Positions 32,819 through 36,296 of a stretch of DNA of 60,072 nucleotides are shown one piece after another. The stretch spans positions 1 to 60,072 of the forward strand of contig CALDTV010000012.1 in the NCBI GenBank assembly GCA_937923625.1, written 5' to 3'. The notes below the pieces were generated by a model. The model saw only the letters and a program-made list of their open reading frames with translations. It was not told the origin of the DNA and ran no database searches. The DNA comes from an uncultured Alphaproteobacteria bacterium. GTDB taxonomy: Bacteria; Pseudomonadota; Alphaproteobacteria; Micavibrionales; Micavibrionaceae. The stretch's first letter is position 1. The number at the start of each line of letters is the position of its first letter. The translations under genes and the position numbers were made by a program.

Positions 32819-34774
32819 ATGTCCCAAGCTCAAGCCGCAGCTGCGCCAAATGCTTCTTTAGAACTCGATCTTAACAAAATGGCGAATGCGATCCGTATGC
32901 TTTCCATGGATGCGATCAAAAAAGCCAATTCGGGACATACAGGGATGCCGATGGGCATGGCGGATATCGCCACGGTGCTTTATTCAAAATTCTTAAAATT
33001 TGACCCGAAAAATCCGCATTGGACGAACCGTGATCGCTTTATTGTCTCAAACGGTCACGGCTCAATGCTTCCCTACTCTATTGCTTATTTGACGGGGAAT
33101 GAGAAACTCACCATTGAAGAGATCAAAAATTTCCGTCAGCTTGGCTCACATACCCCCGGTCACCCTGAGGTTGATGTGGATGCGAGCATTGAAACGACCA
33201 CGGGCCCGCTTGGTCAGGGCATTTCAAATGCCGTTGGTTTTGCCATTGCGGAACGTATTTTAAATGATAAATATGGCGCAGATTGCGATCACTTTACGTA
33301 TGTTTTCACAGGCGATGGTTGTCTAATGGAGGGAGTGAGTCATGAAGCTTGCTCTCTAGCAGGGCATTTAAAACTCAATAAAATGATCGTGTTTTATGAT
33401 GATAATAACGTCACTATTGATGGCACGATTGATTTAACCTTTAGCGAAAACGTTCAAGAACGCTTCAAGGCCTATGGCTGGAACGTCCTAGAAATTGATG
33501 GGCATGATCACAAAGCCATTGCCAATGCGATTGAAGCGGCGCAAAAATCTGATCGTCCCAACTTGATTGCCTCAAAAACAAAAATTGGTTTTGGTGCGCC
33601 AAATTTTGAAGAACAGCCAAAAGCCCACGGCGCCATCACGGCAGAGGATGAAATCGCCGCGACACGCGAAGCCCTCGATTGGCCGCATGCCCCGTTTGAA
33701 ATTCCAGATGATATTTTGGCGATGTGGCGGTCGTTGGGGATGGAAACACCCAGCAATGCCCTCTCTTATCATATTGACACCTCAAAACTTGAAGCTGTGA
33801 CGGCAGAGCTGAAAAAAACATTTGATGAGGAACGCCCAAGCAAAGCGACGCGTCAAACCTCTGGTGCGTGTTTAGAAAAACTTCTCCCCGCGATTGATAT
33901 GATGGTTGGTGGTTCTGCTGATTTAACAGGCTCGAACAACACCAAAGTCTCTGCTTCTGAATTTTTCACTGCGGAAAATGCGGCTGGAAATTACATTAAT
34001 TACGGCGTGCGCGAGCATGGTATGGCTGCGATTATGAACGGCTTAGCGCTTCATGGTGGCATCATTCCTTATGCGGGAACATTTATGCAATTCGCCGATT
34101 ACAGCCGTCCTGCCATTCGTTTGGCGGCGTTGATGGAGCAACGCGTTATCCATGTCATGACGCATGATTCAATCGGCCTTGGCGAAGATGGGCCAACGCA
34201 CCAACCAGTGGAGCATCTCTCTGCCCTTCGCGCTATTCCCAATTGTTATGTGTATCGTCCGTGCGATGGTATTGAAACGGCAGAATGTTGGGAATTGGCA
34301 ATTAAAAATGAAACCGCCCCTGCTATTATGGCGCTCACCCGTCAGGGCATCCCGACCATCCGCGAAGATGACCCCGTGAATAAATGTTCACTGGGGGCTT
34401 ATATTCTTGAAGATTGCGTAGGAGATGAACCCGAAGTGACCCTTTTCGCCTCTGGCTCCGAAGTGCATTTGGCGATGGAAGCGGCAGAGATTCTGGGTGA
34501 CGGTGTGCGCGTTGTTTCTGTTCCTTGTATGGATTTATTCTGGGAGCAAGATGGCGAATATATTCAATCATTGATCTGTAACAAATCCATCAAAGTTGGT
34601 ATCGAAGCAGGTATTCGTCAAAGCTGGGATCGTTTAATCGGCGGTCATTCGACCTTCATCGGCATGGACAGCTTCGGCGCAAGCGCCCCCGCAGACCAAC
34701 TCTTTAAACATTTCGGCATCACAACGGACGCGATTGTCGCGGCAGTTGAGAGAAAAAGATTAAACGCAAAGTGA
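32819..34774 (+). CDS. tkt: Transketolase
   Basis: A 651-residue thiamine-diphosphate enzyme of the pentose phosphate pathway. N-terminal FLKFDPKNPHWTNRDRFI, TPP-binding GDGCLMEGVSHEAC with NNVTIDG, and the pyrimidine-domain GVREHGMAAIMNGLALHGG are visible. It transfers two-carbon units between sugar phosphates. A TTGACC at 32753-32758 may be part of its promoter. The last four codons and the stop (ending LNAK) lie inside the left inverted-repeat arm at 34759-34792, so the natural C-terminus was probably altered by that insertion. Confidence 0.97.
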   Translation: MSQAQAAAAPNASLELDLNKMANAIRMLSMDAIKKANSGHTGMPMGMADIATVLYSKFLKFDPKNPHWTNRDRFIVSNGHGSMLPYSIAYLTGNEKLTIEEIKNFRQLGSHTPGHPEVDVDASIETTTGPLGQGISNAVGFAIAERILNDKYGADCDHFTYVFTGDGCLMEGVSHEACSLAGHLKLNKMIVFYDDNNVTIDGTIDLTFSENVQERFKAYGWNVLEIDGHDHKAIANAIEAAQKSDRPNLIASKTKIGFGAPNFEEQPKAHGAITAEDEIAATREALDWPHAPFEIPDDILAMWRSLGMETPSNALSYHIDTSKLEAVTAELKKTFDEERPSKATRQTSGACLEKLLPAIDMMVGGSADLTGSNNTKVSASEFFTAENAAGNYINYGVREHGMAAIMNGLALHGGIIPYAGTFMQFADYSRPAIRLAALMEQRVIHVMTHDSIGLGEDGPTHQPVEHLSALRAIPNCYVYRPCDGIETAECWELAIKNETAPAIMALTRQGIPTIREDDPVNKCSLGAYILEDCVGDEPEVTLFASGSEVHLAMEAAEILGDGVRVVSVPCMDLFWEQDGEYIQSLICNKSIKVGIEAGIRQSWDRLIGGHSTFIGMDSFGASAPADQLFKHFGITTDAIVAAVERKRLNAK

Positions 34775-34792
34775 CGCGAAGTCGCGCAAAGT
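34759..34792. repeat. Left inverted-repeat arm of the GxxExxY cassette
   Basis: A 34-base arm that begins ATTAAACGCAAAG and ends CGCAAAGT, containing CGCAAAGT twice and a related GCGAAGT. Its reverse complement matches 35202-35233 at about 28 of 34 aligned positions, allowing two single-base gaps. It includes the tkt stop codon at 34772-34774 and ends directly before the ATG at 34793. Confidence 0.8.
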
Positions 34793-35200
34793 ATGACAGA
34801 GCTTAACGATATAACGGAAGAAACCAACAAACTTTCAAAAGAAATTTTAGATTGTTGTTTCTATATTCATACAAAACTAGGCCCAGGCTTATTAGAGAGT
34901 GTTTATGAGGATTGTTTGTTTCACTTTCTATTGCAAAGAAAAATAAATGTAGAAAAGCAAAAGACACTGCCAATTAAGATTGATGATTTTAAAATTCCTA
35001 CGGCTTTAAGATTAGATTTACTTGTTGAAGATCAAATTATTGTCGAATTGAAATCGGTAGAGCGTTTATTACCTCTTCATGAAGCCCAACTTCATACCTA
35101 CTTGAAATTATCAGGCAAACCTTTAGGTTTACTTTTGAATTTTAACGTTAAATCAATGAAAGATGGCATAAAACGCATCGCTATGACAAAACAAAGATAA
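34793..35200 (+). CDS. GxxExxY family protein, nuclease-like
   Basis: A 135-residue protein with the family motif GLLESVY (Gly32, Glu35, Tyr38) in [14 protein letters not shown] later stretch, [16 protein letters not shown], gives Asp75, Glu85 and Lys87, the spacing of a PD-(D/E)xK nuclease core; the nuclease activity is my inference. The family (TIGR04256) has no established function. The gene fits tightly between two imperfect inverted repeats and is not a metabolic partner of tkt or gap. No ribosome binding site is evident, because the repeat arm occupies that space. Confidence 0.88.
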
Positions 35201-35201
35201 A

Positions 35202-35233
35202 ACTTTGCGGAACTTAGCGCCCTTTGCGTTAAT
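35202..35233. repeat. Right inverted-repeat arm of the GxxExxY cassette
   Basis: The 32-base counterpart of 34759-34792 in opposite orientation, beginning ACTTTGCGGAACTTAGC and ending TTTGCGTTAAT. It starts one base after the GxxExxY stop codon and ends 28 bases before the gap ATG. I found no target-site duplication outside the arms. Confidence 0.8.
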
Positions 35234-35261
35234 AATTTTTAATTTAAGGAGAAAAGCATCA

Positions 35262-36296
35262 ATGACTATCAAAGTAGCAATTAACGGTTTTGGCCGTATC
35301 GGACGGAATACCTTACGCGCCCTATTCGAATCTGGTCGTGATGACATTGAAGTTGTTGCGATTAATGATCTTGCGCCGCTCGCGACCAATAAGCATCTTT
35401 TAAAATATGACTCCGTTCATGGGGCTTTTGGCTTTGATGTTGAAACAGTGGATGAAGACACGATCATCGTTGATGGCAAGAATATTGATGTTTGTCAGGA
35501 GCGCAATCCCGCCGACCTTCCATGGGGCAAAATGGGCGTTGATATTGTGTTTGAATGTACAGGAATTTTCACCTCCCGCGAAAAGGCCGCGATGCATATC
35601 CAAGCGGGCGCAAAAAAAGTGCTTATCTCTGCGCCGAGTGGTGATGCTGACATCATGACTGTTTATGGCGTGAATTCGGATAAAATTACGGCGGAGCATG
35701 AAATTGTTTCTAACGCGTCCTGCACCACAAACTGCCTTGCGCCAATGGCCAAAGCGTTGAACGATGCCATTGGTATTGAAAGCGGTTTTATGACGACCAT
35801 TCACTCTTATACAGGCGATCAACGTATTGTTGATACGGCGCATGGTGATTTGCACCGTGCCCGTGCAGGTGCCGTGAACATGATTCCAACTTCAACCGGT
35901 GCGGCCAAGGCCGTGGGTAAGGTGTTGCCAGAATTAAACGGTAAGTTGGATGGCGTATCGATGCGCGTCCCTACACCCAATGTGTCTGTAGTTGATTTTA
36001 AATTTACTTCATCAAAGCCAACAACTGTCGAAGAAGTGAATAAAGCCATTGTCGCTGCGGCTGGTGGTGATTTGGATGGCGTGCTTGGTACGTATGATGA
36101 GCCATTGGTTTCTGGTGATTTTAACCACAACCCGTTGTCTTCTATTTTTGCGGTCAACGAAACCAAGATCATTGGTGGTAATCTTGTACGCGTCATGAGT
36201 TGGTACGACAATGAATGGGGTTTCTCAAACCGTATGTTAGACACCGCCCGTAAAATGCATGAAGTCGGTTACGCGGCTAAATCAAAAGCGGCATAA
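35262..36296 (+). CDS. gap: Glyceraldehyde-3-phosphate dehydrogenase
   Basis: A 344-residue NAD(P)-dependent enzyme. NAD-binding [13 protein letters not shown] is at the start and the catalytic cysteine Cys154 is in [33 protein letters not shown] and [12 protein letters not shown] are characteristic. A strong AAGGAG precedes the ATG at 35262. The frame opens 19 codons earlier, inside the right repeat arm, and those codons are not needed. It is followed after 10 bases by the aldolase gene; pgk is not between them. Confidence 0.97.

Follow-up and report, generated by a model that had tools for sequence, protein, structure and literature searches.

The window analysed here is a stretch of 60,072 nucleotides (positions 1 to 60,072 of contig CALDTV010000012.1) from the genome of an uncultured alphaproteobacterium of the Micavibrionaceae (G000, 2.05 Mb in 28 contigs). 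Between the genes for transketolase (tkt) and glyceraldehyde-3-phosphate dehydrogenase (gap), it carries a small gene of the GxxExxY family enclosed by two inverted arms (Table 1). An earlier reading of this DNA, made from the sequence only, had described the interval 34759–35233 as a cassette bounded by inverted repeats, and both the coordinates and the description are correct.

Table 1. Features of the tkt–gap locus, with positions in the window
Feature	Position	Strand	Remarks
tkt (transketolase)	32819..34774	+	host gene upstream of the insertion site
left arm	34759..34792	+	three CRCNRAG units, period 10; includes the final four codons and stop codon of tkt
GxxExxY / PDDEXK_3 gene	34793..35200, stop included	+	135 aa
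right arm	35202..35233	-	inverted copy of the left arm
gap (glyceraldehyde-3-phosphate dehydrogenase)	35262..36296	+	host gene downstream of the insertion site

As the sequence-only reading had seen, the left arm supplies the C-terminus of transketolase (L-N-A-K and the stop TGA), and the open reading frame (ORF) of the small gene fills the space between the arms: it begins directly 3' of the left arm and stops 1–2 bases short of the right arm. Two sub-repeats had been counted in each arm; the iterated units are present, and there are three of them per arm: CGCAAAG (34765–34771), CGCGAAG (34775–34781) and CGCAAAG (34785–34791) on the left and, on the minus strand, CGCAAAG (35222–35228), CGCTAAG (35213–35219) and CGCAAAG (35203–35209) on the right, with a step of 9–10 bases. 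The local alignment of the upstream and downstream arms scores 20, compared to a mean of 8.8 and a maximum of 16 for dinucleotide shuffles, none of the 2000 shuffles being as good. The sequence CGCAAAGT by itself is not rare (5 occurrences in the window, 2.98 expected). The right arm is followed by AATAATTTTTAA, so partial termination is possible at this position.

The window protein matches TIGR04256 (GxxExxY, 140.7 bits for a cut-off of 35) and PF13366 (PDDEXK_3, 136 bits for a cut-off of 22), and these are its only profile matches. Twelve positions are invariant in 43 aligned sequences (that of the window included), among them E35, Q99, Y103, N116, F117, R128 and the three residues D75, E85 and K87, which do have the PD-(D/E)xK-like spacing attributed to them from the sequence. 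QxxxY is a motif of RecB/Cas4-type enzymes, and Q99xxxY103 of the window protein fits it. The AlphaFold2 model (predicted local distance difference test, pLDDT, 92.6; predicted template modelling score, pTM, 0.86) was compared to the PDB with Foldseek. The nine best matches are chains of SSO0001 (4ic1), which we take to be a Cas4, of lambda exonuclease or of LHK-Exo, the best of them having an E-value of 4.4e-3, a probability of 0.95 and a template modelling (TM) score of 0.41 on the query; lower matches include splicing, restriction and R2 endonucleases. A sequence search of the PDB gave 0 relatives. The protein is a conserved member of the PD-(D/E)xK family and a predicted nuclease. The gene is under purifying selection: the ratio of non-synonymous to synonymous substitution rates (dN/dS) is 0.03, 0.10 and 0.12 in the three of ten pairs with measurable dS, the remaining seven being saturated. 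Four divergent relatives in PF13366 (L025, L032, L273 and L274, 57–70 bits) are possibly resident host versions; the two that were aligned, L025 and L032, have no arms and form a long separate branch in the tree.

The source genome holds three GxxExxY genes, each located between two housekeeping genes, in the operon direction and flanked by arms. The units are CGCAAAG at tkt–gap, CACAGAG/CGCAGAG at lipA–coq10-like and CACGAAT at atpA–atpG, and all three arm pairs beat 2000 of 2000 shuffles. The junctions were compared in ten genomes of the genus (G000–G009). Following a check proposed in the sequence-only reading, the tkt–gap junction, which holds the gene in G000, was found empty in four of the ten congeners (G001, G002, G008 and G009, with a gap of ~20–25 nt) and occupied by a gene-less hairpin in one more (G006). 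G007 has just a right-arm-like stretch, behind another gene, and G003, G004 and G005 have a different sequence upstream of gap. At this junction in G026, a genome of another genus with a gap gene 87% identical, there is a decayed GxxExxY that still has both arms. The lipA–coq10 junction is occupied by the gene in G000 and empty in G001, G002, G008 and G009; the remaining five genomes have other upstream genes. The atpA–atpG junction is empty in G001, G004, G005, G006, G008 and G009, altered in G002 and G003, and holds the gene in G000 and a gene-less hairpin, of a flavour unlike that of G000, in G007. Since this gap has received two elements of unlike flavour within a single genus (L223 in G000, L224 in G007), some gaps may be preferred targets.

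Purifying selection, the possible partial termination at AATAATTTTTAA and the weak matches of three proteins to Cas4-like PADLOC models (best E 8e-4, others to 0.02) would fit an ordinary host or defence nuclease gene, equipped with terminator- or attenuator-like hairpins and devoid of mobility. This explanation is already contradicted by the empty and solo-hairpin states of the same sites. It also accounts poorly for the patchy distribution of the family (0–5 matches per genome, with 1–5 in each of 19 of the 58 genomes of the set of relatives, G000 included), for flavours that differ by locus, and for arms that hug the gene and not the operon. We consider it highly improbable; a host or defence gene only was rejected on the basis of the site states and of the PADLOC search, which gave no clear match, just Cas4-, AbiEii- and RT-type models in the three proteins (E 8e-4 to 0.02).

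Arms and protein types in other genomes

A scan of genome contigs gave 575 confirmed GxxExxY loci. The best 80 of them, biased toward GPGLLE-type proteins, include loci from Proteobacteria, Bacteroidota, Planctomycetota, Verrucomicrobiota, Chloroflexota, Acidobacteriota, Cyanobacteriota, Nitrospirota, Spirochaetota and others, and one Methanosarcinales bin. Arms were aligned and units counted at 110 loci; L117, whose flank is too short, was left out, and L016 and L093, which are one locus, are both counted here and in the orientation tally below. The alignment of a locus's own upstream and downstream arms has a median score of 21, versus 10 for mispaired arms; the score surpasses the 99th percentile for mispaired arms at 44 of the 110 loci, and at 35 loci the own partner ranks first among all 110 candidates. 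The density of CRCNRAG per 120 nt is 2.20 forward and 0.50 reverse upstream of the gene, 2.17 reverse and 0.52 forward downstream, and 0.14 and 0.11 in the far flanks (829 windows). The strict rule, two or more units in each arm, holds on the predicted strands at 64/110 loci, versus 5/110 on the opposite strands; one or more units in each arm are present at 80/110.

The arms that the sequence-only reading wished to see checked around other GxxExxY genes are thus present at most of the loci. That reading had also mentioned CGCAAAG-rich sequence around these genes; CGCAAAG is one of many CRCNRAG flavours, replaced by CRCNRAT in another protein subfamily. The commonest unit is identical in both arms at 43 of the 64 loci, compared to a mean of 8.7 and a maximum of 16 in 2000 permutations, which indicates that arms are alike within a locus and different between loci. 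The tips of the arms examined are AACC / GGTT or nearly so. In the class-wide sample, the strict rule holds at 6 of 15 further loci; one of the 15, L270, was cut at wrong coordinates. Two GxxExxY copies, L098:2287-2939 and L142:2263-2912, are 87% identical in DNA in otherwise unmatched surroundings; both are enclosed by a larger inverted repeat, GCTACTCTTT...GAGTAGC, and this cassette seems to be carried inside another element.

The type of protein agrees with the class of the arms. Proteins of the GxGL..E..Y type go with units ending in AG at 86 loci and in AT at 2, and GxGF-type proteins with AT at 14 and AG at 1. This tally admits D or E before xK, and its 166 loci consist of 22 without an ORF under this rule, 2 duplicates, 39 of neither class and 103 classed. 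Under a stricter ORF rule (E before xK), which leaves out the copies with D, the ratios are 83:1 for AG with GxGL and 12:1 for AT with GxGF (Fisher 2e-13). The exceptions are L122 (GxGF, AG), L107 and L292 (GxGL, AT), L292 being otherwise similar to the GxGF protein L018; further GxGF loci have other unit endings, e.g., CACGGAA- or CACGGAC-like, as judged by eye. In four L018-like proteins (L318–L321), the catalytic E is replaced by D (VDTK), which still gives a PD-(D/E)xK pattern. Along the protein tree, built without six rows whose matched part contains a stop, the 7-mer flavour changes 36 times, compared to a mean of 48.8 and a minimum of 43 in 300 shuffles. L093 was removed from both the tree and the class counts.

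Genes of the unrelated S23 family (23S_rRNA_IVP) were found in 13 of the 240 genomes of the class-wide sample and in 3 of the 58 relatives. Iterated inverted arms that repeat every ~7 bases often enclose the S23 four-helix-bundle genes L066, L067, L068/L069 and L243–L260; the arm units (e.g., GCGAGTA-, GGTATAG- and GGCGAGA-like) are alike within a locus and different between loci. The arm pairs are above the 99th percentile of mispaired arms at 15 of 20 loci, and the own partner is best or equal best in 17; one of the 20, L254, was mis-cut; L068/L069, one gene in two match pieces, was left out of this sample.

The occurrence of unrelated S23 genes in the same architecture would be expected if another enzyme, borne by the host or by an element, mobilised the hairpins. 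GxxExxY would then travel inside them as a passenger or as a domesticated nuclease serving the host, and protein and arms would agree only by co-inheritance. Genomes with many arms and no gene also fit this explanation, as does a flavour that follows the protein tree just partly. A cognate enzyme, in contrast, predicts the agreement between protein type and arm class, the invariance of the catalytic residues across phyla, and the enrichment of solo arms of the matching class where the gene is present (see below). Mobilisation by another enzyme is, in our view, rather unlikely.

Gene-less hairpins and gene orientation

The arms are also found without the gene. The AG-class pattern AACCRCNRAGN{1,3}CRCNRAG has 200 matches in 28 of the 58 relatives, versus 13 for the reversed pattern. 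Neighbouring arm matches within 600 nt, counted among the listed positions only, are inward-facing in 27 and 25 cases, outward-facing in 2 and 2, and same-facing in 3 and 0. The inward spacings are mostly 38–178 (solo hairpins), with two near 260, followed by 394–470, the size of a gene copy. The examples examined include near-perfect intergenic palindromes of ~57–100 bp; of five hairpins whose DNA folding was computed, three were better than all of their 200 shuffles, and the other two better than 199 and 188. The hairpins L182, L188, L189, L190 and L194 are of the AACC type, and their loop holds another palindromic repeat (CGTCATCCCG-type or close). The hairpins are probably not, as a rule, intrinsic terminators: many of the solo hairpins examined, not all, have T-runs before and A-runs after, as in a reversed terminator, no terminator scan having been made.

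The gene and the hairpins tend to occur together, with exceptions. At least two AG-class matches are present in 16 of 19 gene-bearing relatives versus 6 of 39 others (p 6e-7), and, counted per genus, in 14/16 versus 5/26 (p 2e-5); in the class-wide sample, at least four matches are present in 8 of 17 gene-bearing genomes versus 5 of 223 others (p 1e-7), kinship being ignored in all three tests. Beyond two matches per gene copy, at least two more remain in 11/19 gene-bearing and 6/39 other relatives. The gene-bearing sets include genomes with weak and partial matches.

The same holds for the AT class. In 11 of the 18 genomes that have an L018-like gene, versus 6 of 380 others (p 4e-13), the pattern CRCRRATNRACRCRRAT matches at least ten times, the matches overlapping within an arm; within family f178 alone, the counts are 10/15 versus 6/59 (p 2e-5). 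The 18 genomes were chosen by a match of at least 80 bits to L018 and not by the GxGF letters. G440 has 94 matches, versus 2 for the control pattern. G405 has 189 matches and 0 control matches, and its L018-like GxGF gene is L318.

The genes mostly follow the direction of the host operon. At 99 assessable loci, the strands of the two neighbours relative to the gene are ++ in 76 cases, -+ in 11, +- in 10 and -- in 2; these are based on crude longest-ORF gene calls, with one locus doubly counted and 12 of 111 loci not assessable. Annotated examples are a GxxExxY gene between radA and an FAD-dependent gene in Bacteroides finegoldii, and another between fabD and fabG in Sphingomonas parapaucimobilis.

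This strong co-direction (76 ++ versus 2 --), and the fact that the two arms are base-paired in the RNA structure predicted for 34740–35260, would fit a selfish element acting at the RNA level, like the intervening sequences (IVS) of 23S rRNA. RNase III would cut the arm stem in the transcript, the insertion would be harmless, and mobility of the DNA would be rare and secondary. IVS stems are cut by RNase III, according to PMC4990558, and the S23 cassettes have the same architecture. The whole predicted fold is, however, no better than those of shuffled sequences (z -1.18, with 10 of 100 shuffles scoring as well). Convergent genes, as judged from crude open frames, flank some of the gene-less hairpins (e.g., L196 and L197), and co-direction is equally expected if the gene is kept only when it is transcribed. 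An element acting at the RNA level is an unlikely explanation.

A proposed hairpin element and its candidate nuclease

That the arms, the gene and the gene-less hairpins belong to one dispersed family is well supported. We propose, with a probability of about two in three, that the cassette belongs, as one of its copies, to a widespread family of mobile elements working like REPIN/RAYT (hairpin-forming doublets of repetitive extragenic palindromic sequences, REPs, and REP-associated tyrosine transposases) with an unrelated predicted nuclease. The sequence-only reading had suggested a minimal mobile element, or a nuclease cassette spread with its own repeats; this is now the best-supported reading, dispersal driven by the nuclease being what we infer. 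Neither of the two outcomes that the sequence-only reading had named as fatal to it was obtained. Because protein type and arm class agree and the active site is conserved, a nuclease that moves its elements would be the simplest account.

The element would consist of a pair of inverted arms, typically tipped with AACC and containing 2–4 CRCNRAG (or CRCNRAT) units in steps of ~9–11 bases; of an optional gene of ~110–150 codons, between the arms, for a PD-(D/E)xK-type protein; and of gene-less hairpin copies of the arms, ~57–180 bp long. The nuclease would recognise its own unit flavour in the folded arms (a hairpin of single-stranded DNA or a cruciform) and cut in or close to these, allowing the element, gene-bearing or gene-less, to be copied into short AT-rich intergenic gaps. 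The gene-bearing insertions that survive are placed between a stop and a start codon, and their gene points the same way as the host operon; the gene may have no promoter of its own and is presumably read from that of the operon. Gene-less hairpins would be mobilised in trans. A correction templated by the hairpin may keep the two arms of a locus similar while those of separate loci diverge.

Several observations weigh against this proposal. Neither movement nor cleavage was observed. The architecture does not need a GxxExxY nuclease, since unrelated S23 genes have similar arms, and no Foldseek match of the window protein has an E-value of 0.001 or below. At 30 of the 110 loci, CRCNRAG units are absent from one or both arms, some of these loci having other flavours and some none; 9 of the 15 class-wide loci fall short of two units in both arms, several with other flavours or without an arm. 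Many arms are present without any gene match in G003 and G054 among the relatives, in G242 and G256 in the class-wide sample, and in G534 for the AT class; conversely, the gene-bearing relatives G002, G015 and G031 have no AG-class match. The reversed control also matches in rich genomes (15 versus 49 in G313, 8 versus 23 in G307, 5 versus 23 in G470). The gene–hairpin and protein–arm statistics ignore kinship, and the counts include the gene's own arms. The joined flanks of the cassette resemble the four empty sites, with no certain target-site duplication, as intergenic divergence masks the exact ends. Lastly, a tblastn search with the window protein found matches in 6 of 72,556 plasmid records and in 0 of 50,697 phage records, which is odd for a mobile element.

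Five of the six plasmid records with a match exceed 400 kb, and housekeeping genes adjoin GxxExxY in the three whose surroundings were examined. There is no near-identical gene-less record among the listed plasmid relatives of the GxxExxY-bearing records. Cargo borne by plasmids or phages was rejected on account of this near-absence from both collections and of the housekeeping neighbours in the examined records.

A bolder version of the proposal can be put forward only tentatively, and we would not yet bet on it. It holds that there is a new class of transposable elements, present in many bacterial phyla and in at least one archaeal bin, in which a single small Cas4-like nuclease recognises the flavour of its own arms and mobilises its cassette and, in trans, a large population of gene-less hairpins. 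The S23 cassettes would then form another lineage, unrelated but living in the same way, and the 23S IVS would be explained as well.

If the proposal is true, many unexplained CACAGAG-, CGCAAAG- and CACGAAT-type repeats of environmental genomes gain an owner, and GxxExxY, a family name without a function, becomes the hallmark of a hairpin element. This would be a class of mobile elements in which no transposase, recombinase or reverse transcriptase is recognised, testable with one purified protein and one hairpin oligonucleotide. The arm flavours and the matching proteins would form a natural series for studying the co-evolution of a nuclease and its sites, and work on the origin of the intervening sequences of 23S rRNA could begin from the parallel with S23.

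Comparison with known systems

A search of the open literature by family name (GxxExxY, PF13366, TIGR04256), with subscription papers and preprints outside it, gave no description of an element in the accessible parts of the texts; the mentions of the family found there include the label of a neighbouring gene and a table of virus genes. The repeat words of the arms have no match in the open literature. Among the papers listed for palindromic elements or miniature inverted-repeat transposable elements (MITEs) with a PD-(D/E)xK nuclease, none describes such a system, as judged by title or by the start of the abstract, and a term search in the text of a 2024 MITE review did not find GxxExxY, REPIN or S23.

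The predicted nuclease would have in common with the Cas4-like SSO0001 and with lambda exonuclease the D...ExK residues and, judging from the weak matches of the model, the fold. Unlike these enzymes, it has 135 residues and sits inside its own arms, with no Cas1/Cas2 or Red partner beside the copies examined. Like MITEs, the hairpins are gene-less inverted repeats of tens to hundreds of bases, in many copies. They differ from MITEs in that no transposase relative was seen between the arms (GxxExxY was looked for, and no systematic search for insertion sequences was made), in that there is no clear target-site duplication, and in that the arms vary between loci and match within a locus.

The 23S IVS of Coxiella, which contains an S23 ORF, is removed by RNase III and has been described as a selfish element (PMC4990558). 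As in the cassette, a small ORF lies inside inverted repeats that form one stem in the transcript (same source). S23 genes are scattered over several rRNA insertion sites in bacteria of the candidate phyla radiation (CPR; PMC11270868), and 18 of them are reported within cas loci, e.g., between Cmr3 and Cmr2 (PMC3936711), in keeping with insertion into operons. Outside rRNA, S23 genes have the operon-gap architecture in common with the GxxExxY cassettes. The 23S IVS is unlike the cassette in its protein, in its arms and in its location, 23S rRNA versus gaps between protein genes. A 23S rRNA IVS proper was rejected for the window: the site lies between tkt and gap, the protein belongs to PF13366, and an Rfam scan of 34500–35500 matched no family.

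REPINs are extragenic doublets of inverted repeats that form hairpins and are dispersed as non-autonomous copies, in groups tied to specific proteins (PMC3116915). The GxxExxY arms are likewise dispersed inverted doublets, mostly inward-facing, that form hairpins. RAYTs are tyrosine (HUH) transposases, whereas the GxxExxY protein is of the PD-(D/E)xK family; REPs carry a GTAG or CGTC tag, whereas the GxxExxY arms are iterated 7-mers tipped with AACC, from which these tags are absent in the copies examined. The GxxExxY gene, unlike REPIN/RAYT, is present in up to several copies per genome and is codirectional inside operons. A RAYT system proper was rejected, the profiles being GxxExxY/PDDEXK_3 only and the best fold matches PD-(D/E)xK, with no tyrosine (HUH) transposase. 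A defining feature of each of the two classes tested, REPIN/RAYT and 23S IVS, is absent from the system, which appears to be a mobile element not described before, accompanied by gene-less hairpins of its own. By its behaviour, as far as our comparison suggests, REPIN/RAYT is the nearest known system.

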